Shown here: positions 16,441-57,070 of the stretch, piece after piece | How positions within the stretch are numbered: position 1 is the stretch's first letter | Layout of the letters: the number at the start of each line of letters is the position of its first letter | IMG/VR virus record: IMGVR_UViG_3300034375_007061 | Coordinates: 1-64,000 of that record | Length of the DNA: 64,000 nucleotides | Strand: one strand, 5' to 3' | From: a virus | The notes under the pieces: generated by a model | Databases searched by the model: none | The model's input: the letters and a program-made list of their open reading frames with translations, nothing else | What the model was told of the DNA's origin: nothing | Position numbers and translations under genes: made by a program

Positions 16441-16530
16441 GGACAGGTGGCTGAGTGGTCGAAAGCGGCACCCTGCTAAGGTGTTGAGGGGGCAACTCCT
16501 CCCAGGGTTCGAATCCCTGTCTGTCCGCCA
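16441..16530 (+). tRNA. tRNA-Ser (GCT)
   Basis: A 90-base gene. Acceptor GGACAGG pairs with TCTGTCC, the anticodon loop CTGCTAA gives GCT, and there is a long class II variable arm (GAGGGGGCAACTCCTC region). The T-arm is CAGGG-TTCGAAT-CCCTG and CCA is encoded. It reads AGC/AGT codons. Confidence 0.95.
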
Positions 16531-16531
16531 C

Positions 16532-16607
16532 GCTGGTTTAGCTCAGTTGGTAGAGCGCTTCACTTGTAATGAAGATGTCGCGAGTTCGAATCTTGCAACC
16601 AGCACCA
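16532..16607 (+). tRNA. tRNA-Thr (TGT)
   Basis: A 76-base cloverleaf: acceptor GCTGGTT/AACCAGC, anticodon stem CTTCA/TGAAG with loop CTTGTAA (TGT), T-loop TTCGAAT, encoded CCA. Confidence 0.95.
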
Positions 16608-16610
16608 TAT

Positions 16611-16695
16611 GCGGATATGGTGGAATTGGTAGACACGCTAGATTTAGGTTCTAGTGCCGCAAGGCGTGGGGGTTCAAGTCCCTCTATCCGCACCA
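16611..16695 (+). tRNA. tRNA-Leu (TAG)
   Basis: An 85-base class II tRNA: acceptor GCGGATA/TATCCGC, anticodon stem CTAGA/TCTAG with loop TTTAGGT (TAG), variable arm TGCCGCAAGGCG, discriminator A, encoded CCA. Confidence 0.95.
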
Positions 16696-16710
16696 AATTA
16701 AAAAAAGTGG

Positions 16711-16741
16711 TTGACAAACCAAACTAAATAAAGTATAAATA
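16711..16741 (+). promoter_or_regulatory. Combined host-type and late promoter of the microprotein unit
   Basis: TTGACA (16711-16716), 17 bp spacer, TATAAA (16734-16739). The -10 is part of TATAAATA (16734-16741), identical to the T4 late-promoter core. Expected start ~16746. Confidence 0.75.
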
Positions 16742-16765
16742 AGTATAGACAAAAGGAATACTAAC

Positions 16766-16828
16766 ATGATCAAGACTAACACAACATCGATAATAGGTTG
16801 GCCATCACGAAAGTGGGGTATGTCTTGA
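16766..16828 (+). CDS. 20-residue microprotein with its own promoter and terminator
   Basis: ATG 16766 is preceded by AAAGGA with 8-base spacing; the stop is TGA 16826-16828. The 20-residue product starts MIKTNTTSII and has GWPSRKWGMS at the C terminus, with two Trp and a basic Arg-Lys pair. It sits alone on a transcript of about 145 bases defined by a dual promoter and a strong terminator (16857-16891), between two tRNA groups. It could be a secreted or regulatory peptide, a peptide precursor, or a leader ORF on a small RNA. No family is recognised. Confidence 0.55.
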   Translation: MIKTNTTSIIGWPSRKWGMS

Positions 16829-16856
16829 CGTGACTTTTTAAAAAGTTATTTGAGAT

Positions 16857-16891
16857 AAGCCCCTAGCATTAAGTTGTTAGGGGCTTTTTTT
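16857..16891 (+). terminator. Rho-independent terminator
   Basis: Stem AAGCCCCTA/TAGGGGCTT (9 bp), 12-base loop, followed by a seven-T run at 16885-16891. It ends the 20-codon unit and separates it from the downstream tRNAs. Confidence 0.9.
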
Positions 16892-16917
16892 ATTAAAGGA
16901 GTGAAACATAGTTTTTT

Positions 16918-17005
16918 GTCGGTTCGGTGCAGTTGGAGTGGCACACTGGTCTCCAAAACCAGGATTAGAAATAATCAGGGGGTTCGAATCCCTCAACCGA
17001 TGCCA
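16918..17005 (+). tRNA. tRNA-Trp (CCA) with an extra-long variable arm
   Basis: An 88-base gene. Acceptor GTCGGTT/AACCGAT (G1-T72 wobble), D-stem GTGC/GCAC, anticodon stem CTGGT/ACCAG with loop CTCCAAA (CCA). The anticodon arm and discriminator G73 match bacterial tRNA-Trp. The variable region is 15 bases and can fold as GATTA-GAAA-TAATC, a class II-like arm that tRNA-Trp normally lacks (about 5 bases). T-arm GGGGG-TTCGAAT-CCCTC, encoded CCA. All 5' and 3' arms pair, so it looks functional. Confidence 0.8.
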
Positions 17006-17007
17006 AT

Positions 17008-17084
17008 CTTGGTGTGGCCTAGTCTGGTAAGGCGCTTGATTTGGGTTCAAGAGATCGCAGGTTCGAATCCTGCCACCAAGACCA
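17008..17084 (+). tRNA. tRNA-Pro (TGG)
   Basis: A 77-base cloverleaf: acceptor CTTGGTG/CACCAAG, anticodon stem CTTGA/TCAAG with loop TTTGGGT (TGG), T-arm GCAGG-TTCGAAT-CCTGC, encoded CCA. Confidence 0.95.
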
Positions 17085-17088
17085 TTAT

Positions 17089-17161
17089 GCGGATGTTCTC
17101 CTGGGAGAGGACTCAGCCTTCCAAGCTGATGGAGTCGGTTCGAATCCGGTCATCCGCTCCA
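17089..17161 (+). tRNA. tRNA-Gly (TCC)
   Basis: A 73-base cloverleaf: acceptor GCGGATG/CATCCGC, anticodon stem TCAGC/GCTGA with loop CTTCCAA (TCC), discriminator T, encoded CCA. Confidence 0.93.
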
Positions 17162-17165
17162 ACAA

Positions 17166-17253
17166 GGAGAGTTGGCCGAGCGGTCGAAGGCGCTAGTCTT
17201 GAAAACTAGAGTACGGCAACGTACCGTGGGTTCGAATCCCACACTCTCCGCCA
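17166..17253 (+). tRNA. tRNA-Ser (TGA)
   Basis: An 88-base class II tRNA: acceptor GGAGAGT/ACTCTCC, anticodon stem CTAGT/ACTAG with loop CTTGAAA (TGA), variable arm GTACGGCAACGTACC, discriminator G, encoded CCA. Confidence 0.95.
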
Positions 17254-17257
17254 TAAT

Positions 17258-17334
17258 GCTCCTGTGGTGTAACGGTTAACACTCACCGCTCATAACGGTC
17301 GCGATTGTAGGTTCGAATCCTACCGGGAGCACCA
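17258..17334 (+). tRNA. tRNA with CAT anticodon (elongator Met or Ile2)
   Basis: A 77-base cloverleaf: acceptor GCTCCTG/CGGGAGC, loop CTCATAA (CAT), T-arm GTAGG-TTCGAAT-CCTAC, encoded CCA. The outer pair of the anticodon stem is C-C (27-43). Met and lysidine-modified Ile2 cannot be told apart by eye. Confidence 0.85.
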
Positions 17335-17337
17335 TAT

Positions 17338-17431
17338 AGTCCCATAGTTTAGCGGTAAAACACCCGGCTTATATCCGGCATTGTCTCCAGATTAGAGAGC
17401 GTCCCAGGTTCGAATCCTGGTGGGACTACCA
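17338..17431 (+). tRNA. tRNA-Ile (TAT) with an extra-long variable arm
   Basis: A 94-base gene: acceptor AGTCCCA/TGGGACT, D-stem GTTT/AAAC, anticodon stem CCGG/CCGG (outer C-C mismatch) with loop CTTATAT (TAT). The 24-base variable region can form TCTC-CAGATTA-GAGA. T-arm CCAGG-TTCGAAT-CCTGG, discriminator A, encoded CCA. A1-T72 and A73 suit an isoleucine tRNA that reads ATA. A class II-like arm is not expected for Ile, so the identity needs checking. Confidence 0.75.
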
Positions 17432-20771: not shown

Positions 20772-21971
20772 ATGGATTGCTACTTTTTGTTAGATGAGGT
20801 GCTGAATACTCCTCATGCGCCTTTAACAATTAAAACAAATACTTTTATGCAAGATAAAGCAACAAAGTCTATTGACAATTTGTTGGCACATTTTGATGAT
20901 TTTTCTTACAAAAACTTTTTTAATATTAATAGAGTTGATTTACTAGATAAAGACAAACCAAAATTTATATTTAATTTTATGCACATGCCAAGTGAACACA
21001 CACCTCATGTGACACCATTAGCAAAAAAACTTTTGACAAAAAATAAAAATGTGTACCTTATGATTTTTAGTGTGTTAGAGTATCATTTAGATGTAAAACA
21101 GCTAATCAATGAATGCAAAAAGAATAGTTTACCTTTGCAAAAAATAATTGTAGTGTGTAGCAACATTGAATTGCACGGTAAATCATTTGAAGGAATAAAA
21201 TTTATTTGTATAAATTTTTGGGAAAGTTATAGTAGGTTTCATCATCAAATTTTGCCAGAAATTTCTTATGCAACACCTGAAAATTTTAAAAAGGATATTT
21301 TATTAGCACGTAAAGTTTTCCTAAATTTCAATAGGAATATCAAACCGCACAGGATTTGGTGGTACTATTGTATGATTAGGCAAAAGGTTATAGACAAAGG
21401 TCACGTAAGTTATCATTTGCCAAATTTAAACAATAAGGAATATTATCAAGTCAGTAGAAGCACCAACACTACAAAAAGAATTCCACCTGATTTAGAGCAA
21501 GATTTTTTGTATGCATTGGTTAGAGAAATGCCTCCAAGGACACTAGATCCTATTTTACGAACGAACATAATAAATTATAAGTTATCTAGTAATCCATTTT
21601 TTAGAGATAGTGTTGTAAGTATTATCACTGAAAGTGATGCAAGTGTAAACTTTATCACAGAGAAAACCTATAAATCTATAGTTAACTTACATCCGTTTTT
21701 TATTATAGGTAATCCTGATCAGCATTCTTTATTAAGAGCACGGGGTTATCACACCTTTGAAGAATTATTTCAATTAGAACGTGTTACAAATTATGAAGAA
21801 GGCGTAAGTTTATGTAATTGGATACAAAACACAGAGATTGAAAACCTAAAGCGTACGGTGGCCACACAATACATAGATAAATTAATATACAACCAGCAAC
21901 TATTTTTTGAAAGACAAATTAGTTGGAAAACCATTGAAAAAGAGTTGATCAAAACTGCAAATGAAAAGTAA
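20772..21971 (+). CDS. Glycosyltransferase-like protein, 399 aa
   Basis: No signal peptide or TM is seen. The C-terminal third contains VSIITESDASVNFITEKTYK followed by HPFFIIGNPDQHSLLRARGYHTFEEL. This pattern (TEKxxx...HPFxxxGxxxxLxxLRxxGFxTF) is like the nucleotide-sugar-binding end of GT10-type and other phage glycosyltransferases. The N-terminal two thirds are Lys/Asn-rich and of unknown fold. It heads the ten-gene overlapping operon (overlap 11 bp with the first radical SAM gene). It may glycosylate a lipid, a protein or a small molecule. Confidence 0.55.
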   Translation: MDCYFLLDEVLNTPHAPLTIKTNTFMQDKATKSIDNLLAHFDDFSYKNFFNINRVDLLDKDKPKFIFNFMHMPSEHTPHVTPLAKKLLTKNKNVYLMIFSVLEYHLDVKQLINECKKNSLPLQKIIVVCSNIELHGKSFEGIKFICINFWESYSRFHHQILPEISYATPENFKKDILLARKVFLNFNRNIKPHRIWWYYCMIRQKVIDKGHVSYHLPNLNNKEYYQVSRSTNTTKRIPPDLEQDFLYALVREMPPRTLDPILRTNIINYKLSSNPFFRDSVVSIITESDASVNFITEKTYKSIVNLHPFFIIGNPDQHSLLRARGYHTFEELFQLERVTNYEEGVSLCNWIQNTEIENLKRTVATQYIDKLIYNQQLFFERQISWKTIEKELIKTANEK

Positions 21972-23172
21972 TTTTCCAAAACACTTTTGCATGGCACCTT
22001 GGACACACATGAGCGTGTGGCAAACAGGCGATGCTTATCCATGCTGCATATACCATTGGGATATGCCAATTGACAACATTAATCGAAGCGGACTTAAAGG
22101 TGCTTGGAATAGTGAAAAAATGCGTGACTTAAGATTACGTATGTTAAGCAATCAACCAAGCGAAGGTTGTGTCAAGTGTATTAACTATGACGAGCAAGGC
22201 ATTATCAGTTATAGACACAAGTTTAATACAGAATACAATCATCATTACAATATTGTAAACACAACACAAGAAGACGGAACCGTCGAGCAAATGAATCTAG
22301 CGTATTTTGATGTGCGATTCAGTAACTTGTGTAATATGAAGTGTCGTAGTTGTGGACCACACTTTAGTAGCAAGTGGGCTGAAGATATAAACGGAAAGCC
22401 AGAAGTGGTTGAAATTAATCATCAAGATATGTGGGAAGAAATAGAAGAAGTGCTTCCTAACATTGAAGAAATATATTTCACAGGTGGGGAAAGTTTGTTT
22501 ATGCCGCAGCATTATAGATTACTAGACATGTTGATAGAGCGTGGACTCAAACCAAAGCTAACATACAACAGCAACGCAACACGCCTCAGTCTTAAAGGCA
22601 AACACATTAAAGATTACTGGCAACATTTTGATCGTATCTTCTATTGTGTTAGTTTAGATCAAATAGGACACAAAGCAGAGTATACACGAGCAGGTCAAAC
22701 CTGGGATACGGTGTTTAATAATCTGTGTTGGATACGTGATAACTTTGAACATAATTATGAAAAAGGTGTAGTAATTCAACCAACACCAACTATCAGTGTT
22801 TTTAATATTTTAGATTTACGTAAGATTGTTAACTATTTGTTCGAACACAATATTCCTACAGAATATGATATTAATTTAAGCAATGTTTTAGTAGGACCTG
22901 ATTTTATGAGTATTACTATTTTACCAGAAAAAATAAAACAATATGCTAAAGAAAATATTGAACTATTAAAAGAAGATATAGATAAAATGGATATGTATCC
23001 TCAACGCAAAGAATTTTTATATACTGGACTAGACAATATCATTAATTTCATGTATAGTAAAGATGATTCACATCGAATTCCAGAGTTTAAAAAATACATG
23101 CAAGACCTTGATATGAAACGTAAAGAAAACTTTGTGAATGTGTTTCCAGAATTAAAGGATTTGTATGTCTAA
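21961..23172 (+). CDS. Twitch-domain radical SAM protein (1 of 4)
   Basis: This 403-residue protein has an N-terminal Cys-rich segment (Cys10 in FCMAPW, Cys28/29 in YPCCIYH, Cys70/73 in GCVKC) that may hold an auxiliary iron-sulfur cluster. The radical SAM motif C124-x3-C128-x2-C131 (NLCNMKCRSCG) follows, then a TGGES SAM-binding strand. This order, auxiliary domain before the barrel, is shared by the proteins at 23165, 26531 and 28700. The substrate is unknown; relatives modify peptides or sugars. It overlaps the next gene by 8 bp. Confidence 0.85.
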   Translation: MKSNFPKHFCMAPWTHMSVWQTGDAYPCCIYHWDMPIDNINRSGLKGAWNSEKMRDLRLRMLSNQPSEGCVKCINYDEQGIISYRHKFNTEYNHHYNIVNTTQEDGTVEQMNLAYFDVRFSNLCNMKCRSCGPHFSSKWAEDINGKPEVVEINHQDMWEEIEEVLPNIEEIYFTGGESLFMPQHYRLLDMLIERGLKPKLTYNSNATRLSLKGKHIKDYWQHFDRIFYCVSLDQIGHKAEYTRAGQTWDTVFNNLCWIRDNFEHNYEKGVVIQPTPTISVFNILDLRKIVNYLFEHNIPTEYDINLSNVLVGPDFMSITILPEKIKQYAKENIELLKEDIDKMDMYPQRKEFLYTGLDNIINFMYSKDDSHRIPEFKKYMQDLDMKRKENFVNVFPELKDLYV

Positions 23173-24370
23173 AGATTTAACCAAAAGCAAACATTTTTGT
23201 ATGATGCCATGGGTTCATATGCACATGTGGCCTGCAGGATATACCTATCCTTGTTGTATGAGCGATCCTGCGTATCCAATTGGAAATACACAAGATCAAA
23301 GTTTACAAGATATTTGGAATGGTGAGGAATTACGCAACATAAGAATGAATATGTTGCAAGACAAACCTAGTAAAGAATGCCGTCGGTGCTATGAACTAGA
23401 AGAAAGCGGTATGAGCACACTTAGAACTGGCAGTTTACAAAATTATAAACATCATATGAACAAGGTTTATGAAACAAGCGACGACGGTAGTGCTGGTGAC
23501 GTCAATATGGCGTATATGGATATACGTTTCAGTAATTTGTGTAACTTGAAATGTCGTAGTTGCGGCCCTCAGTTTAGCAGCAGTTGGTTTGAAGATCATA
23601 AACAAACACACGGCGACCCAGGACATCCAAAAATACTCAAAGTGCGTGATGACATGTTAAACTTCATGGACGAACTTGAACCATTACTTAAAAGTGTTGA
23701 ACGTGTGTATTGGGCAGGCGGTGAACCGCTAATTACAGAAGAACATTATCGTATACTTGATTATTGGATTGAAAATAACGTTAGTCCAGCAATGGATTAT
23801 ACAACTAATTTTACACAAATGAAATATAAACGTAAGACTGCGTTTGAATACTGGAATGCATTTGAACGTGTAAGAGTTGCAGCAAGTTTAGATGCTAACC
23901 ATGCAAGAGGTGAATACCTGCGTAAGAATATGGATTGGGAACAAGTTGTACAAAATAGACGAGACATGATAGAACAATGTCCTCATGTTTATTTTGAAAT
24001 AACTCCTACCGTAAGTGTGTATAATGTGTTAAATTTACCCGATTTTCACAAAGAATGGATTGAAGAAGGGTTGCTAGAACCGCAAAATATTAGAATTAAT
24101 ATTTTATTAGATCCAACCTACATGAGATTACAGCTACTTTATCCTTGGATGAAAGATAAAGTTACTAAAAGATACCATAAGCATATTGATTATTTAAAGC
24201 AATTTGAAAATACAAGTTGGGTGATAAAAGATTTTGAAAGTGTACTACAATTTATGGAAACTGACAGATCAGATGAAATTGACACGTTTAAATTTAAAAC
24301 ATTTAAAATAGACAAACTAAGACAAGAAGCAGTATTTGATATATTTCCTGAACTAGGTGATTTTGCATGA
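23165..24370 (+). CDS. Twitch-domain radical SAM protein (2 of 4)
   Basis: A 401-residue paralogue of the preceding gene. N-terminal Cys at 12, 30, 31, 72 and 75 are in the same relative positions. The radical SAM motif is C126/C130/C133 (NLCNLKCRSCG), and WAGGEPL binds SAM. The C terminus (FDIFPEL) also matches that of the first copy (VNVFPEL). It overlaps the B12-type gene by 4 bp. Likely arose by duplication in the phage lineage. Confidence 0.85.
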   Translation: MSKDLTKSKHFCMMPWVHMHMWPAGYTYPCCMSDPAYPIGNTQDQSLQDIWNGEELRNIRMNMLQDKPSKECRRCYELEESGMSTLRTGSLQNYKHHMNKVYETSDDGSAGDVNMAYMDIRFSNLCNLKCRSCGPQFSSSWFEDHKQTHGDPGHPKILKVRDDMLNFMDELEPLLKSVERVYWAGGEPLITEEHYRILDYWIENNVSPAMDYTTNFTQMKYKRKTAFEYWNAFERVRVAASLDANHARGEYLRKNMDWEQVVQNRRDMIEQCPHVYFEITPTVSVYNVLNLPDFHKEWIEEGLLEPQNIRINILLDPTYMRLQLLYPWMKDKVTKRYHKHIDYLKQFENTSWVIKDFESVLQFMETDRSDEIDTFKFKTFKIDKLRQEAVFDIFPELGDFA

Positions 24371-26538
24371 CACAACAAAAAACATTTCACGATTACAAAG
24401 ATCCGAATAGAATTACACCAGAAAAACCTACTGGAACTCTAGCTGAAGACAAACACGTTGCAACTTTAAAGGTTATAGAAAAATATAGCAAGCCTGTACA
24501 AAAAGGCTTAGAAGATTTAAAAATTGAATATGCAGTTAAAAGAGCTACAAGAGTAGCACTATGTTTATTACCAGAATGGGATCCTAGTTTTCCTCCATAT
24601 AACACAGCAAAACTTGCCAGTGCCGTAAAACGTGCAGGATATGAATGCAGAAGTTACGATATCAATGTAGAAGCATATGATAGATATTCAAAAAACCCTT
24701 GGCCAATTGAATTTAATCCTTGGGATGCATTACGTGACTGGCATTGGTACGAAGAGCCCTACTTTAAAGATATACATGAACATCTTGAACCTATTTTATT
24801 AGAGTATGTAGAAAAACTTGTTGAGTACGACCCTCATGTTGTTGGGTTTAGCTTATATTATTGTAATGAACAACCAACAAAATGGATGGCATATGAACTG
24901 AAAAAAAGATTGCCTAATGTTAAAATTGTTGTAGGTGGCCCTGCCACACATGCTAGTTATTACAAAGGAGAAGAAATTTATGATTATGTTGTAAATGGTG
25001 AAGGCGAACAACCTTTACTAGGTATGTTAGCTAATATGGAACGTGAAACAAAAATAATTTACAACGAACAAGCAAAAAGCAAAATTATTAGACAACCAGA
25101 AAATCAGCGTTATAATCTAAGCACATTACCGTTACCTGATTATAGCGATTTTGATTTTAGCAAATACAAGTTTCCAAATGGTGCATTGTGTGAAATATCA
25201 CGTGGATGTATTGCCAAGTGTACATTTTGTGAAGAAACACACTTTTGGAAATATAGACAACGCAATGCTTTAAGTACATTAAATGAAATTGAACATATGT
25301 ATTATGAGCATGGTACAAATGTATTTTGGTTTATTGACAGCTTGGTTAACGGTAATTTAAACGAGCTACGTGGATTTGTAAAAGGCGTAGCTGAAAAAGG
25401 TTTGGATATCCATTGGACAGGATATTGTCGCTGTGATGGACGTATGGACTTAGAATATTATAAAGATCTAAAAGCAGGTGGATGCGAAGTTCTCAACTAC
25501 GGTATTGAGTCTGGAAGTCAAAAAGTTTTAGATCTTATGGACAAAAAAGTTACCGTTGCAGAAATGGAACAAAACTTTGAAGATGGATATAAAGTTGGTG
25601 TTGATGCAATGACCAACTGGATAGTTGGCTTTCCAAATGAAGGACACAAAGAACTTGAAGATACGTTAACATTTTTATGGAGAGTACGTAATAAAGGTTT
25701 AATAGCAATCAGTCAAGGTACAGGATTCAGCGTTGGTGTTGATACTATTGTAGGACAAAATTTTGACAAATTTAATCTTTCACCATTTTATTATTATGAT
25801 CATTGGATTACCAAAGACTTCAAAATGAGTATTGTACATAAATTAATACGGATGAAATGTTTTAGTATTTTCACTGATTTTATAAAAACTGAAAAAACAT
25901 GTAGTAAACCGACAAGACATAATCTAGCAAAAAAACATTATACAATAGAATTCAATCATCCTGATAGAGAAAATGTTATAGATTATGTTTCCGAAGATTT
26001 TGATTATAATATCATTAAACCTAATATTGGTAATTTTGCTGATAGTTTAGTAAATGAAATATGGCCATTTTTACACATTGTATGGAAAATCAAAGGTGGA
26101 TACAAACTCAATCTAAAATTTAAAAAAGAATGGGAATATGAAGAATGGGGTGAACGTAATGCTGCGCCATTGAATGCAGAATACAAGTTTGAAATAGATG
26201 ATGAAGGAAACTGGAAAGCAGACTTTGGTTGGGATTATAGACAAGACCCATATAACGATTGGAACGACAAATACTGGATAGAAAATGGTTTTCAAAAAGT
26301 AAGCGTTGATCCTTGGAGTCCAATTTGGGCAATAATGGATTTTACTAGAGATAATGGTAATGCAGTTGTTAGAGCTAGAAAACTAGCATGGAAAGGCACT
26401 GACAAAGCAAAACGAGATCCATACGATGCATTTGACAGACACGTATTTAGAGAGCACGAAAGAGAATTTATGAAGACTAGAAATATTGATTTTAGTTTTG
26501 TTTACTTTTGGCAGGGGGAAGGAAAATGGAGTGAGTAA
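24367..26538 (+). CDS. B12-binding-domain radical SAM protein
   Basis: This 723-residue protein has a Rossmann-like cobalamin-binding region at ~60-225 (VALCLLPEWDPSFPPYNTAKL, VGFSLYYCNEQP, VVGGPATHA, VVNGEGE) and a radical SAM motif C281-x3-C285-x2-C288 (GCIAKCTFC). The B12 region lacks the DxHxxG base-off motif, as in many class B radical SAM methylases and ring-contracting enzymes. A long C-terminal extension (~500-723) is Trp- and Asp-rich with unknown role. Expected chemistry is methyl transfer or rearrangement at an unreactive carbon. Overlaps: 4 bp upstream, 8 bp downstream. Confidence 0.88.
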   Translation: MTQQKTFHDYKDPNRITPEKPTGTLAEDKHVATLKVIEKYSKPVQKGLEDLKIEYAVKRATRVALCLLPEWDPSFPPYNTAKLASAVKRAGYECRSYDINVEAYDRYSKNPWPIEFNPWDALRDWHWYEEPYFKDIHEHLEPILLEYVEKLVEYDPHVVGFSLYYCNEQPTKWMAYELKKRLPNVKIVVGGPATHASYYKGEEIYDYVVNGEGEQPLLGMLANMERETKIIYNEQAKSKIIRQPENQRYNLSTLPLPDYSDFDFSKYKFPNGALCEISRGCIAKCTFCEETHFWKYRQRNALSTLNEIEHMYYEHGTNVFWFIDSLVNGNLNELRGFVKGVAEKGLDIHWTGYCRCDGRMDLEYYKDLKAGGCEVLNYGIESGSQKVLDLMDKKVTVAEMEQNFEDGYKVGVDAMTNWIVGFPNEGHKELEDTLTFLWRVRNKGLIAISQGTGFSVGVDTIVGQNFDKFNLSPFYYYDHWITKDFKMSIVHKLIRMKCFSIFTDFIKTEKTCSKPTRHNLAKKHYTIEFNHPDRENVIDYVSEDFDYNIIKPNIGNFADSLVNEIWPFLHIVWKIKGGYKLNLKFKKEWEYEEWGERNAAPLNAEYKFEIDDEGNWKADFGWDYRQDPYNDWNDKYWIENGFQKVSVDPWSPIWAIMDFTRDNGNAVVRARKLAWKGTDKAKRDPYDAFDRHVFREHEREFMKTRNIDFSFVYFWQGEGKWSE

Positions 26539-27739
26539 TACATATTGTGTATATCCATTTATAAACGTACACACAAACACGGACGGACGCTGTAAACTTT
26601 GTTGTCATGTATATGGCGAAGATTATATACAAGTAGACGGCAAAGATGCTGTTCTTGGTAAAACAGATTGGAACAACATATGGAATAGTCAGTACATGTT
26701 AGATGTACGGGCAAATATGTTAGCAGGTAAGTTAGTTAAAGAATGCGGTCGCTGCTACGAGCACGAAGCAAAAGGTTTACAAAGCAGTAGGCAGTGGGCA
26801 AATGAAAACTATAAAGCACCCATGTTGCATAGCAATCCTACTCACCTGGAACTTAGGCTTGGTAATCACTGCAACTTAAAATGTAATAGTTGTTGGAGTG
26901 TTAGCAGCGACAACATTTACAAAGAACGCAAAAAGATTATGAGCAAAGAACGTTTGCCAACTTGGTTACATGATCAATGGGCTCACGAAATCCGCAGTGT
27001 AGAAGAACACGATTGGCAATGGTACGAAACACAAGAGTTTCGCGACTTTGTAGATGCGGTAGCACCGACACTAGAAAGATTGTATATGACAGGTGGTGAA
27101 CCTACACTAATACAAGCAAATCAATATGTATTAGATAAACTTGTAGAGGCAGGTAATGCAAAATGTCATGTTGCATGGACTACAAATATGACCACATGGC
27201 CAGAAGGATTTTATGATAAACTAGATTTCTTTGATAGTAGTGAGATACAGATGAGCATAGATGGACATGGCGATCATAACATGTATATACGTTATCCTAC
27301 AGATTGGAACAAGGTAGAAGAAAATTTTGCCAAAGCAATGACACTGCCGGAAAAAGTACAATTAAAAATATATTTTGTATACCAAGCGTGGAACGTATTT
27401 GATGTATCGCCACTTGTGAAATGGTTAGAAAGCACACAAACACGTAGAGTAGATTTTGTACCTATATTCTTAGAACATCCAGATCAAATACATAGTTGTG
27501 TTTGGCCAGAAGATATCAGACACAAGACACTTGACGATTTACGTATGATTAATACAAAATTACATAAAGATGCTATCCAAAGAATCATTAACTACACACA
27601 TAATACTAATAAATATTCAATAGAAAATTTAAAAAGAATGCGCCAATTTATAAACATCAACGACAAATACAGGAGATACAAGTTTAACGAAGTATTTCCA
27701 TTTTTAGACTATGTATTGGAAACATCATGCAAGATATAA
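26531..27739 (+). CDS. Twitch-domain radical SAM protein (3 of 4), GTG start
   Basis: I start at GTG 26531, which overlaps the previous stop (GTGAGTAA) and has GGGGGAAGGAA upstream; no better ATG exists before the conserved region. The 402-residue product has N-terminal Cys6, Cys21, Cys24/25, Cys72 and Cys75, and the radical SAM motif C114/C118/C121 (HCNLKCNSC), then TGGEPT. It is more divergent than the first two copies. The overlap with the next gene is 13 bp. Confidence 0.83.
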   Translation: MSNTYCVYPFINVHTNTDGRCKLCCHVYGEDYIQVDGKDAVLGKTDWNNIWNSQYMLDVRANMLAGKLVKECGRCYEHEAKGLQSSRQWANENYKAPMLHSNPTHLELRLGNHCNLKCNSCWSVSSDNIYKERKKIMSKERLPTWLHDQWAHEIRSVEEHDWQWYETQEFRDFVDAVAPTLERLYMTGGEPTLIQANQYVLDKLVEAGNAKCHVAWTTNMTTWPEGFYDKLDFFDSSEIQMSIDGHGDHNMYIRYPTDWNKVEENFAKAMTLPEKVQLKIYFVYQAWNVFDVSPLVKWLESTQTRRVDFVPIFLEHPDQIHSCVWPEDIRHKTLDDLRMINTKLHKDAIQRIINYTHNTNKYSIENLKRMRQFININDKYRRYKFNEVFPFLDYVLETSCKI

Positions 27740-28719
27740 GAGCAATTGTTCCAGCTAAAGAAAAATGGGTAAGTCTAGTATGGCAAGTAAACGATTGGTG
27801 TAACTTCCGTTGTACCTATTGCAGTGAATGGAACTGGGCAGGACGCAATAAGAATGATAAAGATATTCATCTAATTGTAAACACTTTAGAACGTATTATG
27901 TTGCACTACAAAGATAAAGGATACAAATATTTTAAATTGTATCTCAGTGGCGGCGAACCTACATACTGGGCTGCACTTATTCCTGTTGTAGAAAAGTTTA
28001 GAGAAATTGCAGAATGGCCGGGTAGTTGTGTAGGTATAAACACAAATATGAGTAGGCCTGTTAGCTGGTGGGAACAACACCATCATTTGTTTGAAGATGT
28101 AGTTGCTAGTTATCACGCTGAATGGAGTAAAGATGACAAATATATGGCATCGTATAAATTTTTGCAAGATAAGAAAAACTACTTGTGTGCAAGAATAATG
28201 ATGCACCATAATTATTTCCAGCAGTGCGTAGACTTTGGTAATAGAATCAAAGAAGAATGCAATAATTATATGATTGAATATGCACCAGTATACGATGAAC
28301 TACGTCCTAGTACAGATCCTTATCATTACGATGAGAAATGGCAAATGGATTTCTTCAAGGAAAATAGCACAGCACAACAACAATTAATACCAATTAAAAA
28401 AGATCCAAACTATGCTTGGGCTAAAACACAATTCATTGACGGTAGTGAAGAACCAATTAATACAAATGGAATCATTACTGAAGGTAAAAACTTTTTTAAA
28501 GGATGGTTGTGTAATATTCATGAAAGTTTACACATACATCCAAATGGAAATATTCAACAAGCAAGCTGCGGTGTCGGTCCAATTGTAGGAAATATTGTGC
28601 AGGGAGAATTTAATGCCACACTAAGTGAAGGTGTGTGGTGTCCTAAATCACACTGCCATTGTGCAGCAGATTTTAATATTAGTAAAGCAAGGCCAGAATA
28701 TGCAGAACAAATTAGATAA
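27727..28719 (+). CDS. Radical SAM protein with SPASM-like C terminus
   Basis: This 330-residue protein has the radical SAM motif right at the N-terminal part (C25/C29/C32, WCNFRCTYC), SGGEPT for SAM binding, and a C-terminal Cys cluster (GWLCNIHE, NIQQASCGVG, WCPKSHCHC) resembling a SPASM/twitch auxiliary-cluster domain. The layout is the reverse of the four N-terminal-twitch proteins around it, so it may catalyse a separate step. Overlaps: 13 bp upstream and 20 bp downstream. Confidence 0.83.
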   Translation: MQDIRAIVPAKEKWVSLVWQVNDWCNFRCTYCSEWNWAGRNKNDKDIHLIVNTLERIMLHYKDKGYKYFKLYLSGGEPTYWAALIPVVEKFREIAEWPGSCVGINTNMSRPVSWWEQHHHLFEDVVASYHAEWSKDDKYMASYKFLQDKKNYLCARIMMHHNYFQQCVDFGNRIKEECNNYMIEYAPVYDELRPSTDPYHYDEKWQMDFFKENSTAQQQLIPIKKDPNYAWAKTQFIDGSEEPINTNGIITEGKNFFKGWLCNIHESLHIHPNGNIQQASCGVGPIVGNIVQGEFNATLSEGVWCPKSHCHCAADFNISKARPEYAEQIR

Positions 28720-30037
28720 ACTACCAGAAAAATATTGTTACTTTGCTATGCAAGGATACAGCACACATCCACATGGAAGAACACGCCCTTGTTGTTTTAG
28801 TAGAATTGAAACTAATGCGTACATGCCAAGTGTTAATATTGGTGCAGTACCATACTGGCAAGAACACAAAAACTGGAATAGTCCTGATATTGCTGATTTT
28901 ATGAATGATCCAAAACTAATGGATATTAGATCACAACTTTTAAAAAATGAAACTCCAGAAGGTTGTAAAAGTTGTTTTGCTTTAGAAGATCAAGGTATAC
29001 GTAGTTTTAGACAAACATGGAATGAAATTTATGAAGATGACATAGATGAATCTCTTTCCAATGTAAGTGAAGACGGATACGTAGATCCAAAAGCAGTTAC
29101 TTATTTAGATATTAGTTTAGGTAATGTGTGCAATCTAAAATGCCGTAGTTGTAATCCATGGGCTAGTCATAGATGGATCGAAGAAGGTCCAACGGTTCCT
29201 CATACCGATTGGGACGAAACTGCATATCTTGTAGGAACTATGAGTAGTAAAAATCCTTGGTTTGTACAAGCATTTGAAGACAACTTCTTTGATGAAGTAT
29301 TACCTAATGTAAGAGTAATTAATTTTATCGGCGGTGAACCATTGGTTGTTGAAGAACACTATGCATGGCTAGAGCATATCATTGATAATGGTTGGGCACA
29401 AAACATAGAGCTACACTACAATACAAATGGTACAACTATTCCAGATAGACTTTTACGTATTTGGGATAAGTTTAGAGGTATTGTATTAAGTCTAAGTATA
29501 GATGCTATTGGAGATTTAGCATACTATGTACGTTTTCCTAGCAAATGGAAAATAGTTCAACGTAACGTAGACAAGTTAGCAGAGTTTAGTAAAACAAGAC
29601 ATGGTGTGGTTGTACATACACATGTAACTCTTAGCTTGTTAAATTTACATCAATTACCAGAAATACTTGGATGGTGTAAAGAACAATACGATAAATGGCA
29701 CTACACATGGGATTGGGGTAATCATGGATATCAAAATTGTTTACCTCATTTTAATATTGTTGAACACCCAAGACATTTGAATATTAGAAACCTACCAGCT
29801 GATAGAAAAAAACTAATGAATCAAATGCTAGAAGAACAATATAATAAATTTAAAATAGCAGGATTACCTGACTGGGAAAATTGGGCTATTGAAAACATTA
29901 TTAACTTAAAAAATGTTTTAAACCAAGAACCAAACGAAGGCGACTGGAAAGTATTTGTAGATAACACCAATGCTAGTGACAAATTTAGGAAGGTTGATAT
30001 AAATAATTACATTGATTGGGTTAAGGAGTATTTTTGA
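28700..30037 (+). CDS. Twitch-domain radical SAM protein (4 of 4)
   Basis: The start ATG 28700 (MQNKLDKLPEKYC) lies within the end of the previous gene. The 445-residue protein has N-terminal Cys13, a CC pair (PCCFS) and GCKSC, then the motif C144/C148/C151 (VCNLKCRSCN) and IGGEPL. It has a longer insertion before the barrel than its paralogues. The following TTG start overlaps its TGA. Confidence 0.83.
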   Translation: MQNKLDKLPEKYCYFAMQGYSTHPHGRTRPCCFSRIETNAYMPSVNIGAVPYWQEHKNWNSPDIADFMNDPKLMDIRSQLLKNETPEGCKSCFALEDQGIRSFRQTWNEIYEDDIDESLSNVSEDGYVDPKAVTYLDISLGNVCNLKCRSCNPWASHRWIEEGPTVPHTDWDETAYLVGTMSSKNPWFVQAFEDNFFDEVLPNVRVINFIGGEPLVVEEHYAWLEHIIDNGWAQNIELHYNTNGTTIPDRLLRIWDKFRGIVLSLSIDAIGDLAYYVRFPSKWKIVQRNVDKLAEFSKTRHGVVVHTHVTLSLLNLHQLPEILGWCKEQYDKWHYTWDWGNHGYQNCLPHFNIVEHPRHLNIRNLPADRKKLMNQMLEEQYNKFKIAGLPDWENWAIENIINLKNVLNQEPNEGDWKVFVDNTNASDKFRKVDINNYIDWVKEYF

Positions 30038-30645
30038 AACTTGCAGTTTTTGGTGACGAATTTTGTCATGGTGAAGGAACATTTGGAGGCTTTATTGCAG
30101 ACAAATTAAATATTGAATATGCAGATTGGACATTACCTGATACATCCAATCAACGTATATTCCAAGATGTAATTAATTATGTTTGTACACACCATCCTCA
30201 GGAAAACAATCACATTTTGCTTATTGGATGGACTGATCCTGCAAAAGTAGATGTGTATTTAGATAGTAGATATTATACATTCCAAAAAGATCGTAAGTCT
30301 TATCCTCATTTAATGGTTAACAATTTACATATAGCAGATAGATATTTCTTTGATTCTAATCTAGTTATGAATGATTGGGCAACTATGATTGTTAGTTTAC
30401 AAGGAATGTTAAATTTTATGGGAGTAAAATACTATATGTTTAACACCAGCACCAGTATTCTTAACAATGATCTTACACAGAAAAAATGTGCAGCAATTGA
30501 TACCAAATACTATTGGAATCCTATGAGTGCTAAACACACTTTTAAAAGATTCTGTGATGATAGGAAGATAACTGATGTACCAATGAAGCAAAAAACTTGG
30601 GGCAAACAATTAATGATAAAAATACGTGAGGCAAATTTGTTATGA
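30034..30645 (+). CDS. SGNH-hydrolase-like protein, probably inactive; TTG start
   Basis: TTG 30034 overlaps the TGA of the previous gene (TTGA), and AAGGAG lies 9-10 bases upstream, which fixes this start. The 203-residue protein looks like an SGNH/GDSL fold: strand plus GDEFCHG where active enzymes have GDSxxxG, DTSNQ, and HILLIGWTDP. The nucleophile Ser is replaced by Glu and the C-terminal Asp-x-x-His is not seen, so it may bind rather than cleave. It is followed by an intact relative. Confidence 0.6.
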   Translation: MKLAVFGDEFCHGEGTFGGFIADKLNIEYADWTLPDTSNQRIFQDVINYVCTHHPQENNHILLIGWTDPAKVDVYLDSRYYTFQKDRKSYPHLMVNNLHIADRYFFDSNLVMNDWATMIVSLQGMLNFMGVKYYMFNTSTSILNNDLTQKKCAAIDTKYYWNPMSAKHTFKRFCDDRKITDVPMKQKTWGKQLMIKIREANLL

Positions 30646-31367
30646 AGATACTAGTTGCATTTGGTTGTAGCCATACACATGGAAGTATGATTGATGGCAA
30701 AGACGGTAGTAGTGAATATAATATTCGTAATGGGTTTCCTGGCATGTTTGCAAAAAGGAATGGATACCAACTTATCAATATAAGTAAGCCAGGTGGTAGT
30801 AATCAGTATATTCATAGACAGGTAATTGAATTTATAACTGGACATATGAATCCATCTCATGAATATCTTTTTTTGATTGGTTGGACAAGTTCAAATAGAA
30901 TTGAATTACGGTATCCAGACTATGAAGACCATACCTATCACACCTTAGGAGATTATCAAGATAGAAAGTATGTTGCATTTAGTCAAGGAACTAGTCCAAA
31001 TGTATTTCATACAGACCCTATTAAAAAATTATTAGATTTTACACCGTTATTTCTTGATACATCTGCAATGGAAACTAAATGGGCTGCCTATGCTTGTAGT
31101 TTACAAAATATATTATACAGCAAAGGTATTCCATATTTAATGCACAACACTTGCACTGAATTAAGAAAAAATCATATGAATAATGACATTGTACATGCTA
31201 TCGATACAACATATTACCCTCATCACACTAACAAAAAAATGTGTATGGTACAATATTTACTAGATAAAAAAGTTCCTAAAACTGAGTGCTGGCACTTCCA
31301 AAAAGAAGGACACGCTATGTGGGCAGATAAATTAAGTTTATGGGCTAATCAAGCTGGATTGGTATGA
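30642..31367 (+). CDS. SGNH-hydrolase-like protein
   Basis: This 241-residue protein has FGCSHTHG (possible nucleophile Ser10), SKPGGSNQYI (block III Asn), LFLIGWTSSNRIE, and a late His in CWHFQKEGHAMWADKL. These match the SGNH blocks of small phage and bacterial acyl-esterase-like proteins. It may deacylate or acylate the product of the radical SAM/glycosyltransferase pathway. It is linked to both neighbours by 4 bp overlaps. Confidence 0.65.
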   Translation: MKILVAFGCSHTHGSMIDGKDGSSEYNIRNGFPGMFAKRNGYQLINISKPGGSNQYIHRQVIEFITGHMNPSHEYLFLIGWTSSNRIELRYPDYEDHTYHTLGDYQDRKYVAFSQGTSPNVFHTDPIKKLLDFTPLFLDTSAMETKWAAYACSLQNILYSKGIPYLMHNTCTELRKNHMNNDIVHAIDTTYYPHHTNKKMCMVQYLLDKKVPKTECWHFQKEGHAMWADKLSLWANQAGLV

Positions 31368-32005
31368 TACGTGATTGCAAATCTAGAAAATTTAGTTATC
31401 AAAGTTTAGAATACAACTTTAGATATGGGCAACCAGATGAAAAGTTTTTTCAACAAGTTTTGTTTGATCGTAGAGTAGAATTTTGGAAAAATATTTTTGT
31501 TCAAGAATTAGATATACAACACGCTATACATTACAATATTTTCCAATCAAGTTTAGATACATTTTGTATTTTTGTAGCAGCAAAAGAACTAGGTCTTGAT
31601 TTTGATAAATCTGGCTTTGACTTTAATGTATTTGTTTATACAAAATTTGCTAACAAAAAAATAAAACACGATCCTGATATTAGTGCTATTTCTAATAATA
31701 TAGTTGTACCAAACATAAAACTAAAAGGAACCGTGATGCACACGAACTACGGTTTAAATAATGATATGTTCATGCAATATTTGTTTCCTACAATGTGTAA
31801 TGATAAAGTTGAAAAACATAGTTGCTTAGGATATACAGATAGAGAAATTGGCATTCCAAAACTTGCAAGGATATGTAAGTATCTTACACCTAACCATATT
31901 TGCTTTCCTAATAAAAATGATGCAACTTACTTTAAAAATTTGTTAGAAACAGAAAATCCTATAAGAATATATTTTATGGTTGACAATAAATTAGAAATTT
32001 GTTAA
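31364..32005 (+). CDS. Hypothetical protein, 213 aa
   Basis: No family is recognised. The protein is rich in Phe, Tyr, Asn and Lys with a mixed alpha/beta pattern (QHAIHYNIFQSSLDTFCIFVAAKELGLDF; TPNHICFPNKNDATYFKNLLE). It is the last gene of the overlapping operon that starts at 20772, so its role is probably tied to that pathway. Confidence 0.55.
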   Translation: MIRDCKSRKFSYQSLEYNFRYGQPDEKFFQQVLFDRRVEFWKNIFVQELDIQHAIHYNIFQSSLDTFCIFVAAKELGLDFDKSGFDFNVFVYTKFANKKIKHDPDISAISNNIVVPNIKLKGTVMHTNYGLNNDMFMQYLFPTMCNDKVEKHSCLGYTDREIGIPKLARICKYLTPNHICFPNKNDATYFKNLLETENPIRIYFMVDNKLEIC

Positions 32006-34758: not shown

Positions 34759-35208
34759 ATGAGTTACTATAGCACAAAAACATACGGGCACAACATTGGA
34801 TTGAGTGCCTGCTTTAGACAACCTAAAGCACATAGCCATTGTAGATTTTTACACGGATATAGTTTGCAATTTAGATTTACATTTGCAGCAGACGAACTAG
34901 ACGAAAAGAACTGGGTTGTAGATTTTGGTGGATTGAAACCACTTAAAGCATGGCTTGAAGATACATTTGATCATAAAGTTGTCCTAGACAGAGATGATCC
35001 AATGATGTATAAGTTTGCAGAACTGGAAAACGCAGGACTTGCTGAACTGACTATACTAGACGGTGTAGGTGTAGAGAAGTTTGCCTATCATGCTTGGAAA
35101 CAAGCAAACGAACTTGTACAAGAAATGACAAACGGACGTTGTCGTTGTGTAGAAGTAGAATGTGCTGAGCACGGAGCAAATAGTGCAATCTACAAAGCAA
35201 TGGACTGA
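34759..35208 (+). CDS. QueD/6-pyruvoyl-tetrahydropterin synthase-like protein, variant zinc site
   Basis: This 149-residue protein fits the QueD/PTPS fold: SHCRFLHGYSL (catalytic Cys28; HGH motif reads His32-Gly-Tyr34), WVVDFGGLKPLKAWLEDTFDHKVVL, and a C-terminal Glu (VEVECAEHG). In classical QueD three His bind zinc; here one is Tyr34 and the first is Cys18 (LSACFRQ). It may be a distinct subfamily with another metal site. The normal reaction makes 6-carboxy-tetrahydropterin, an early step to queuosine and 7-deazaguanine DNA bases. A QueC-like gene is present at 56456. Confidence 0.8.
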   Translation: MSYYSTKTYGHNIGLSACFRQPKAHSHCRFLHGYSLQFRFTFAADELDEKNWVVDFGGLKPLKAWLEDTFDHKVVLDRDDPMMYKFAELENAGLAELTILDGVGVEKFAYHAWKQANELVQEMTNGRCRCVEVECAEHGANSAIYKAMD

Positions 35209-37627: not shown

Positions 37628-38229
37628 ACAAATTAATATATGATTCTAAAATAAATCATGACAAAAAATTAATACATATTTTTACACCAAAGTGTGGCGG
37701 TTCGTCCGTCACACAATGGTTGTATGATTTAGATCCTAAATCAACTTGGTCTAAATTTCCACAGCTTGCTAAATCTATACCACCTGGTTATACATCTTTC
37801 GCAACAATACGGTCTCCAATACCTTGGGTTGTAAGTGGATACAGAATGTTTAAATCAAGATATAACTTACCTTTTGATTTTGAAACTCATTGCGAAATGA
37901 TCATAAATCCGTTGCCATTAATAAGGAATGAATATAAAAATAGAAAACAGGATCCTGAAAATGCTGTTCCGTGGGGAAGTTATTGGTGGCACTGCGGAAT
38001 AACTCCTGATACACATTTATTACCATCTACATATACGTTTAAACTAGAAAAGATAAGCTCTTTACAAAACTGGATGCGTAGATTTTATTCAAATGCATTA
38101 GATGTTCCTTTTGTACACACAAACAAATCTGAAAAAATACCAGTGCAAATGACTAGGACTACTCAGGAACTTATCAAAAGAAAAATGCATTATTATGCTG
38201 ATAGATTTGACTATGGCTGGAACACATGA
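37612..38229 (+). CDS. Sulfotransferase-family protein, TTG start
   Basis: TTG 37612 has GGAG 10 bases upstream. The 205-residue product has HIFTPKCGGSSVTQWL, the 5'-phosphosulfate-binding loop (PKxGGSS/T), and TIRSPIPWVVSGYRMF, the 3'-phosphate-binding R...S motif of PAPS-dependent sulfotransferases. It would transfer sulfate from PAPS to a sugar or protein acceptor. The APS kinase at 60865 could supply PAPS. It overlaps the SGNH-like gene by 4 bp. Confidence 0.75.
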   Translation: MASELDKLIYDSKINHDKKLIHIFTPKCGGSSVTQWLYDLDPKSTWSKFPQLAKSIPPGYTSFATIRSPIPWVVSGYRMFKSRYNLPFDFETHCEMIINPLPLIRNEYKNRKQDPENAVPWGSYWWHCGITPDTHLLPSTYTFKLEKISSLQNWMRRFYSNALDVPFVHTNKSEKIPVQMTRTTQELIKRKMHYYADRFDYGWNT

Positions 38230-38825
38230 AAATAGCAACCTTTGGGTGTAGTTATACAAACTACATATATCCTACTTATGCAGATATTCTAGCACAAGAA
38301 CACGAAGTAAAAAACTTTGGATGGAGTGGTAGTGGCAATGACAAAATTTGGTATCTGCTACACAAAAAAATTGATGAAATAAAAGATCATTTTGTAATTG
38401 TACAATGGAGTTCGTGCAATAGATTTGATTATCTTAAAGGTGCTAAATGGCTAGGCGGTGATGGTAGCATTTTTTTTGACAAAACACATTGGCCTTTAGT
38501 AAAAGATTTTTTTAATGAATCCTACGAATTAGGTAAACTACACAATTATTTAAGAAGCACACGAGCACTATTTCCAAATTCTTTGCAAATGTCAATGAAT
38601 AAAATACAATCAAAATATATAGATGTAAATGATTTATTCGGTACATATAAAGGAACATACAAGTTTAAAGGTGATATAGACTGGCATCCTAATTTATTAC
38701 AACATTTAAAAATTGCCAAAAGTATTGCTCCAGTATCATATGATACAGAGTTAAAAGTGAAAAACTTGCATAATAAGCTGCAAGATGAAGGTTTACACAA
38801 TGACAATACTATTACAATTTGCTAA
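38226..38825 (+). CDS. SGNH-hydrolase-like protein
   Basis: This 199-residue protein has FGCSYTNY (possible nucleophile Ser9), WSGSGNDKIW (Gly/Asn block), FVIVQWSSCNRFD and a C-terminal DWHPNLLQH (Asp-x-His). It belongs with the proteins at 30034 and 30642 and has the most complete catalytic set. It is linked to the sulfotransferase gene by a 4 bp overlap, suggesting a shared glycan or lipid substrate. Confidence 0.65.
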   Translation: MKIATFGCSYTNYIYPTYADILAQEHEVKNFGWSGSGNDKIWYLLHKKIDEIKDHFVIVQWSSCNRFDYLKGAKWLGGDGSIFFDKTHWPLVKDFFNESYELGKLHNYLRSTRALFPNSLQMSMNKIQSKYIDVNDLFGTYKGTYKFKGDIDWHPNLLQHLKIAKSIAPVSYDTELKVKNLHNKLQDEGLHNDNTITIC

Positions 38826-39155: not shown

Positions 39156-39518
39156 ATGAGTATACTAACTTTAACACCATCAGCAGAAGCACAAATTGAT
39201 TTACTTTGTAATGAAAATGAATGTTATGGAATCAGTCTTAATATAAAAGGCGGAGGATGTGCAGGCTTTGAATATGATTGGGGCACAATTGCATCGCCTA
39301 TGGATTTAGAAGACGGCGATGAAGTTGTAAAAACAGCAAATGGTTGTGCATTTGTAGTAGGTTCGCATAGTTTAATGTTTCTCATAGGAACAGAAGTTGA
39401 TTATGTAAAAAGTTTAGTTGGCGCTAACTTTGAAATACGCAATCCTAATGCACAAAGTTCATGCGGTTGCGGAGTAAGTGTTAACTTTGATATGGACAAT
39501 TTAGTACCAGAGTGGTAA
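39156..39518 (+). CDS. A-type iron-sulfur carrier (IscA/HesB family)
   Basis: This 120-residue protein has GGGCAGFEYDW and a C-terminal SSCGCGVSV, supplying the three conserved Cys (C, CxC) that bind the cluster. It delivers Fe-S clusters to target proteins. The late promoter right before it and the tail-fibre gene 12 bases after it suggest late expression with virion genes, a placement also seen in other marine T4-like phages. It may serve Fe-S enzymes in the cell or an iron-binding virion part. Confidence 0.85.
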   Translation: MSILTLTPSAEAQIDLLCNENECYGISLNIKGGGCAGFEYDWGTIASPMDLEDGDEVVKTANGCAFVVGSHSLMFLIGTEVDYVKSLVGANFEIRNPNAQSSCGCGVSVNFDMDNLVPEW

Positions 39519-56459: not shown

Positions 56460-57070
56460 TTCTTTGTGACGTAGAATTTGAACTACCAAAAGGCCCTGTC
56501 GGTGTGTTGTGCAGCGGCGGGGCTGATAGTTCATTAATCCTTTATTTGTTAATGAAACATAGTAATCAACCATTACATGTCCTTACAATGGCAAATAGAA
56601 AAAAACATTTTACTAATGCTATAGTTGTAAGTAAAGTAATAGATTGGTGTATGAAAAAAACAAACAATAATAATATTGTACATACCGTAAAATACGTCGA
56701 TGAGCAAACAGACGAGCAATTACAACAACTAACAATTCAACATCTAAAAGTATTCCGTACAATTTACATTGGTGATACTTGTTATCCACCAGAAGATATA
56801 CATGATGAATTTGTACAAAATACAGGCGATAGTTTTAATAAACTAGAAGATAGAAAACCAAATAAAAATCGTGCAACAAAAGCAGGGCCAATATATGTTC
56901 CATTTACAAATTATAACAAAAGAAAAATAGCCGAAATATACGAACATCTTGATATTATGGAACTTGCAGATATTACTCGCAGTTGCGAAACATTTGAAGA
57001 TATTGGTACAAAACATTGTGGTAACTGCTGGTGGTGCAAAGAAAGAGAATGGGCTTTTGATAAACGGTAA
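56456..57070 (+). CDS. QueC-like PP-loop ATPase
   Basis: This 204-residue protein has GVLCSGGADSSLIL (PP-loop SGGxDS) and ends with RSCETF...HCGNCWWCKEREWAF, matching the QueC zinc motif C...CGxCxxCxxRxxAF. QueC makes preQ0 (7-cyano-7-deazaguanine) from CDG, used for queuosine tRNA or for 7-deazaguanine DNA in phages. The QueD-like protein at 34759 belongs to the same pathway; QueE and FolE are not in the window. The middle portion is divergent, so another substrate is possible. Confidence 0.75.
   Translation: MILCDVEFELPKGPVGVLCSGGADSSLILYLLMKHSNQPLHVLTMANRKKHFTNAIVVSKVIDWCMKKTNNNNIVHTVKYVDEQTDEQLQQLTIQHLKVFRTIYIGDTCYPPEDIHDEFVQNTGDSFNKLEDRKPNKNRATKAGPIYVPFTNYNKRKIAEIYEHLDIMELADITRSCETFEDIGTKHCGNCWWCKEREWAFDKR

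Follow-up and report, generated by a model that had tools for sequence, protein, structure and literature searches.

Phages alter the surface sugars of their hosts with few genes. The gtr-type clusters, by which phages convert the O-antigen, change the glycan on the surface of the host and prevent superinfection, and they consist of a glucosyltransferase, a flippase and a bactoprenol glucosyltransferase, or of an acetyltransferase. Here, we describe a ten-gene operon on a stretch of viral DNA of 64,000 nucleotides, hereafter called the window, which covers positions 1-64,000 of the 113,734 bp IMG/VR virus record IMGVR_UViG_3300034375_007061 (G000). We propose the same purpose for this operon as for the gtr-type clusters, but unlike these it contains radical S-adenosylmethionine (SAM) enzymes, six in number. 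BtrN and NeoN are twitch/SPASM enzymes that act on aminocyclitols and aminosugars and, like DesII, AprD4 and GenK, they carry out radical reactions at the carbons of carbohydrates, of the twitch/SPASM or B12 type that we propose here. However, they serve bacterial antibiotic pathways, and the twitch domain of BtrN is C-terminal, whereas that of the operon enzymes is N-terminal, although it resembles the BtrN twitch.

In the pelagimyophages, radical SAM cassettes come and go in a hypervariable host-recognition island with tail fibres and glycosyltransferases (Zaragoza-Solas et al., 2020; PMC7029224). The window phage is likewise marine and probably T4-like and its operon has an island setting, a resemblance that makes it at most a candidate member of this group. 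In the part of that article available to us, the cassettes are mentioned in passing, without enzyme families, operon anatomy or function, whereas the first two are detailed and the third is proposed below. Furthermore, the T4-like viral genome TARA_ERS488813_N000010 contains 12 radical SAM genes and an iron-sulfur (Fe-S) carrier (Nishimura et al., 2017; PMC5332604). Judged by its description, it shares with the window phage, which is probably T4-like too, a marine origin, a richness in radical SAM genes and an A-type Fe-S carrier, but it was read as a case of Fe-S cluster use, with neither a glycan link nor a conserved operon. Radical SAM-rich marine phages were thus noted in 2017 and 2020, but a pathway was not described there, in line with a first-pass annotation of the window that knew of no described phage pathway with this content. 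A widespread marine virus lineage spends 11 kb on oxygen-sensitive radical enzymes without a known substrate.

Anatomy and conservation of the operon

The operon spans positions 20772-32005 on the plus strand and consists of ten intact, in-frame open reading frames (ORFs), each with a single stop at its end and none with a frameshift:

20772..21971, + strand: g1, GT-B fold glycosyltransferase without a Pfam family, predicted with AlphaFold2 and Foldseek
21961..23172, + strand: g2 (tw1), N-terminal-twitch radical SAM enzyme (NF033640)
23165..24370, + strand: g3 (tw2), N-terminal-twitch radical SAM enzyme (NF033640)
24367..26538, + strand: g4, B12-binding radical SAM enzyme, an optional member of the operon (PF02310 and PF04055)
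26531..27739, + strand: g5 (tw3), N-terminal-twitch radical SAM enzyme with a GTG start (NF033640)
27727..28719, + strand: g6, radical SAM enzyme without an N-terminal twitch, with a SPASM-like cysteine-rich C-terminus (PF04055)
28700..30037, + strand: g7 (tw4), N-terminal-twitch radical SAM enzyme (NF033640)
30034..30645, + strand: g8, SGNH-like protein without the catalytic Ser and His (alignment with the g9 family)
30642..31367, + strand: g9, SGNH-fold esterase or acyltransferase candidate, DUF6071 (PF19547 and fold)
31364..32005, + strand: g10, fast-evolving protein of the close clade only, without a family (profile searches)

The ten ORFs overlap from end to end by 11, 8, 4, 8, 13, 20, 4, 4 and 4 bp, exactly as the first-pass annotation had it, with g5 starting at a GTG at 26531, preceded by the ribosome-binding-like site GGGGGAAGG, and g7 at an ATG at 28700. 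The G+C content is 33.3% in the operon and 36.7% in the window. The window has 5 copies of the T4 late-promoter motif TATAAATA, where 8.8 are expected, and none of them lies just before g1; the timing of expression can therefore not be read from this motif. Since overlapping genes are common in phages, we rejected overlap as sole proof of translational coupling and give weight only to its conservation.

A close clade of about 20 IMG/VR contigs shows an unvarying gene order, with identities of about 70-90% for g2-g7 and lower ones for g1 (35-50%), g8 (25-32%), g9 (37-53%) and g10 (about 28%, 12 loci). The overlap of g2 and g3 is 8 bp in 15 of the 16 syntenic relatives, that of g5 and g6 is 13 bp in all 16, and that of g6 and g7 is 20 bp wherever measurable, with the start in each relative placed at the codon nearest the homologous start, a choice that favours such agreement. 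Co-occurrence in other phages, which the first-pass annotation had named as the supporting observation, was thus found, whereas the scattering or disruption of the genes that would have spoken against it was not. Megablast searches of 50,697 phage records with the operon and with a 25 kb part of the window gave no match, and in tblastn searches of the same records g1 and g6 matched nothing and g4 had only weak matches. We conclude that this phage enzyme module is real and conserved and, for the most part, has not been described before.

In a maximum-likelihood tree of 124 proteins, inferred by a quick method that leaves some deep forks open, tw1, tw2, tw3 and tw4 form four separate, strongly supported clades. 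Relatives of tw2, tw3 and tw4 occur in the clusters of distant viruses, and bacterial sequences lie between the groups. The four twitch enzymes are thus old and distinct rather than recent copies, and each may perform a step of its own. These patterns also bear on the view that the genes are metabolic or Fe-S-related auxiliary genes with unrelated single functions and no common pathway. The published notion that such phages favour the use of Fe-S clusters (PMC5332604) and the presence of an Fe-S carrier gene agree with that view, but strict co-inheritance in a fixed order, with fixed overlaps and distinct ortholog groups, leaves it with very little probability.

The B12 gene g4 is cleanly missing from the otherwise syntenic operons of four relatives (L156, L166, L168 and L223), all four of which have a 4 bp overlap of g3 and g5, and it was not found elsewhere in the records of L156, L166 and L223, which may be partial. 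The B12 enzyme is therefore optional, and its reaction may be a tailoring step that the pathway can do without, as would hold for a C-methylation. In an alignment search, g4 had 112 relatives in viruses and none in the genomes of bacteria; likewise, when 84,980 species of bacteria and archaea were searched for g4, limited to what a sequence pattern can detect, there were 106 pattern matches and no relative.

Radical SAM enzymes and their partners

The motif CxxxCxxC is preserved in all six radical SAM proteins. The four twitch proteins score 366.9 (g2), 393.2 (g3), 297.7 (g5) and 319.1 bits (g7) against NF033640 (N_Twi_rSAM), for which the curated full-length cut-off is 170 bits. They are thus members of this family, with the particular feature that four orthologous subgroups co-occur. 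All four retain the twitch cysteines, at positions 10, 28, 29, 70 and 73 in g2 (CxxxCxxC at 124) and at 12, 30, 31, 72 and 75 in g3 (CxxxCxxC at 126); in g7 the motif is CNLKCRSC at 144. C12, C30, C31, C72, C75 and C126/C130/C133 are invariant in an alignment of 16 rows. Bacterial members of the family were found in Bdellovibrionota, Flavobacteriales and Rhizobiales-type genomes, among others.

Both the B12-binding domain (PF02310, 37.9 bits) and the Radical_SAM domain (PF04055, 57.1 bits) of g4 are above cut-off, with CIAKCTFC at 281, and the g4 profile touches TokK in the B12 domain. No curated subfamily of B12 radical SAM enzymes accommodates g4, the top NCBIfam model being TIGR03975 with 98.2 bits against a cut-off of 281.85, and the other models also falling below theirs. 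The sixth enzyme, g6, is above cut-off for PF04055, has CNFRCTYC at 25 and shows a weak TIGR04303 match in the SPASM region at residues 242-296. The division into four N-terminal-twitch enzymes, one B12-type and one SPASM-like enzyme given by the first-pass annotation is thereby retained, for the last of these on a weak match.

TIGR03975 is a C-methyltransferase for the maturation of ribosomally synthesized and post-translationally modified peptides (RiPPs), and many of the weak matches of the twitch enzymes are RiPP maturases. This raises the question of whether radical SAM/SPASM and B12 radical SAM enzymes here modify a phage-encoded peptide, or a phage or host protein. We regard this as quite unlikely, because the matches are all far under the cut-offs (98 versus 281.85 bits for g4), there is no candidate for a precursor peptide and the end-to-end overlap of ten genes leaves no intergenic space for one. 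Nor do the families shown for viral neighbours include a recognition element, a peptidase or an exporter; sugar genes are found there instead.

The sequence profile of g1 gave nothing useful against the PDB, and g1 was therefore assigned by its fold. The AlphaFold2 model (pLDDT 90.2, pTM 0.88) matches almost exclusively GT-B glycosyltransferases at the top of the Foldseek results, including trehalose-phosphate synthases, SPY and a GT10 fucosyltransferase, which upholds its earlier description as glycosyltransferase-like. R194, E287, E297-K298, G325 and N374 are invariant in 38 relatives. We rejected an assignment of g1 to the GT10 fucosyltransferases, with which it shares a likeness in fold only: it has no Pfam match and its profile finds no GT10 enzyme in the PDB.

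Two SGNH proteins had been annotated, of which g9 is upheld by its fold and g8 only as a relative. The former matches PF19547 (31.9 bits, cut-off 27), and its AlphaFold2 model (pLDDT 91.1) is closest to GDSL/SGNH esterases and hydrolases and CE2 carbohydrate esterases in the PDB, with the peptidoglycan O-acetyltransferase PatB lower down. It has the motifs GCSHT, GGSN and CWH and thus both the Ser and the C-terminal His, while block III reads IGWT rather than GxND. Aligned with the g9 family, g8 reads GDEFC at the site of GCSHT and lacks a C-terminal His; having lost the nucleophile, it is probably a non-catalytic SGNH relative. The last protein, g10, has no credible match in Pfam, PHROG or NCBIfam and remains of no known type, as annotated.

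The proposed link to glycans

Distant viruses (L022, L030, L033-L036 and L039) contain orthologs of several of the operon radical SAM enzymes. In such distant viruses, the radical SAM sets are continued by genes whose ends overlap as well, namely the g1 family, a UDP-glucose/GDP-mannose dehydrogenase, an NDP-sugar C-methyltransferase, a Stf0 sulfotransferase and an NAD epimerase, and other distant viral clusters add GT9, a DegT aminotransferase, a carbamoyltransferase and a CMP-sugar transferase. At least 16 of the 109 non-redundant neighbour proteins belong to carbohydrate families (DegT, carbamoyltransferase and epimerase three each, UDPGDH and Stf0 two each, and a mannose-phosphate isomerase, a C-methyltransferase and a CMP-sugar transferase), as compared to 0 of 97 at the same island in phages that lack the radical SAM genes, a difference (Fisher p 2e-5) that is only indicative because the control phages differ in lineage. 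A common neighbour family of about 323 amino acids (c0) matches no Pfam family. In the record of L022 (G007, 85,789 bp, or 86 kb), both strands have radical SAM matches, 18 in all. A jumbo viral record of 518,643 bp (L041, G010) has a Gp23 capsid protein and matches NF033640 at 21 places, which are spread over several clusters. Furthermore, contigs of metagenome-assembled genomes (L096, L119 and L120; Rhodobacteraceae NAT686, Rickettsiales MED657) carry a viral-type cluster with a twitch radical SAM gene, g1, SGNH and sugar genes; these may be either phage contigs in the bins or true host loci.

A second island lies beyond the window at 84960-98641 of G000 (L028). It includes a nucleotidyltransferase, a HAD phosphatase-like ORF, a GT-B-like ORF, an ORF resembling pyridoxal-phosphate enzymes and an SGNH protein, together with:

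G000 86683-86973: UDP-sugar dehydrogenase
G000 92036-92677: epimerase
G000 93915-95201: second g1-type glycosyltransferase, overlapping the next gene
G000 95182-96105: fifth twitch radical SAM enzyme

In the named Vibrio phage K566, four twitch radical SAM genes, two above the NF033640 cut-off and two somewhat below it, are interleaved with two GT8 genes and one GT4-like gene, which may make the question testable at the bench. A gene annotated as PagP lies nearby, and there are weak matches of the twitch enzymes to tetraether lipid synthase. Both could be taken to mean that a lipid or lipid A is modified and not a saccharide, which we consider very unlikely, since the families shown for viral clusters include no acyl-chain genes and sugar tailoring fits the SGNH and glycosyltransferase genes better. 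Where the first-pass annotation left the choice between a glycan, a lipid and a peptide, the sugar enzymes of the relatives thus speak for the glycan and the lack of room for a precursor against the peptide, while a lipid-linked target may still apply.

With moderate confidence, we hypothesize that the operon is a phage cassette that builds or tailors an unusual glycan, most likely on the host surface polysaccharide. The freshwater pelagimyophages, which lack both the genes related to lipopolysaccharide (LPS) and the radical SAM genes (PMC7029224), favour this hypothesis. Several points weigh against it, in addition to the lineage bias of the control. The window operon itself has no nucleotide-sugar enzyme, the connection to glycans being made through the relatives and the second island, and a nearer radical SAM record (G003) showed neither the epimerase nor the UDP-sugar dehydrogenase. 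The NF033640 family carries no assigned function, and the neighbours of its bacterial members are mixed, including GT2, carbamoyltransferase and other radical SAM genes, and do not settle it. The Foldseek TM-scores are modest (about 0.4-0.6).

In the proposed scheme, the substrate of the twitch enzymes would be a sugar or sugar nucleotide, of which a 5'-deoxyadenosyl radical would alter unactivated carbons by dehydrogenation, epimerisation or deoxygenation. The B12 enzyme, where present, would C-methylate the product, g1 would transfer the sugar, and g9, paired with a non-catalytic g8, would add or remove an acyl group, while the Fe-S carrier of the phage may help to load the clusters. The target would most likely be the LPS O-chain or the capsule of the host, with the virion as the second choice, and the changed receptor would exclude competing phages. 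The components of the operon come from known superfamilies, and a change of the surface glycan, its likely purpose, is a known phage strategy, but the chemistry could be categorically new. More tentatively, and with fairly low confidence, five core radical SAM enzymes and an optional B12 enzyme might constitute a virus-specific pathway to a sugar unknown from cellular life, placed on the cell surface or virion, as a counterpart to the biosynthesis of antibiotic-type deoxy and branched sugars. If the enzymes act on glycans, the operon would encode a radical-enzyme pathway of a size unusual for a virus and be a source of new carbohydrate chemistry, and it would help to explain why ocean viruses have Fe-S carrier genes and offer an entry to phage-phage competition at sea.

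Genomic surroundings

Upstream of the operon lies a cytidylyltransferase-like gene (u4), which is followed by other genes in L148, L150, L154 and L157, where u4 is 87-92% identical and the stretches downstream are short, and likewise in more distant phages. The downstream flank d3-d6, with a glycosyltransferase and QueD among its genes, is likewise present in phages that lack the operon. Together, this fits a cassette in an island of the kind described as the hypervariable host-recognition cluster of pelagimyophages (PMC7029224). The following features of the window are relevant here:

34759-35208: QueD homolog
39156..39518, + strand: A-type Fe-S carrier at a separate locus (PF01521, E 1.2e-14)
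39531-46757 and 47097-48506: tail fibre genes, 7.5-17 kb downstream of the operon

Given these tail fibre genes, and with no membrane export gene recognised in the operon by Pfam, the same glycan chemistry might act on tail fibres or capsid rather than on the host surface. Virion glycosylation is unlikely in our view, as no result points to a protein acceptor and the glycosyltransferases of the pelagimyophage island were interpreted as altering the O-chain (PMC7029224).

QueD was ruled out as a member of the operon system, given that d3-d6 persist without the operon. A tRNA-guanine-transglycosylase-like ORF of 518 amino acids is located in the second island, at about 87762-89318 of G000, and with QueD it possibly serves a deazaguanine modification of DNA that is independent of the operon. 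These two genes, and the GT-B fold of the T4 DNA glucosyltransferases, could suggest that g1 and the radical SAM enzymes build a sugar or other group on the phage DNA bases. Such hypermodification is highly improbable: a search for the thymidylate-synthase/dCMP-hydroxymethylase family found no member in G000 or in 8 of 10 further records, which may be partial, and the persistence of QueD in operon-less phages marks it as independent.

An A-type Fe-S carrier is encoded in 13 of the 24 viral records with radical SAM genes and plausibly supplies iron-sulfur clusters to these enzymes. The Gp23 capsid protein was identified in the related records G009, G010 and G013 and not in G000, which may be partial; G000 does have the phage clamp-loader gene phrog_168. 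A further SGNH-family protein (window 38226-38825, E 3e-8 to the g9 profile) lies between an endonuclease and the Fe-S carrier, and a further radical SAM gene at 56949-57914 weakly resembles the activase of anaerobic ribonucleotide reductase. Just upstream of the island, at 16441-17431, the window contains an array of nine tRNA genes.

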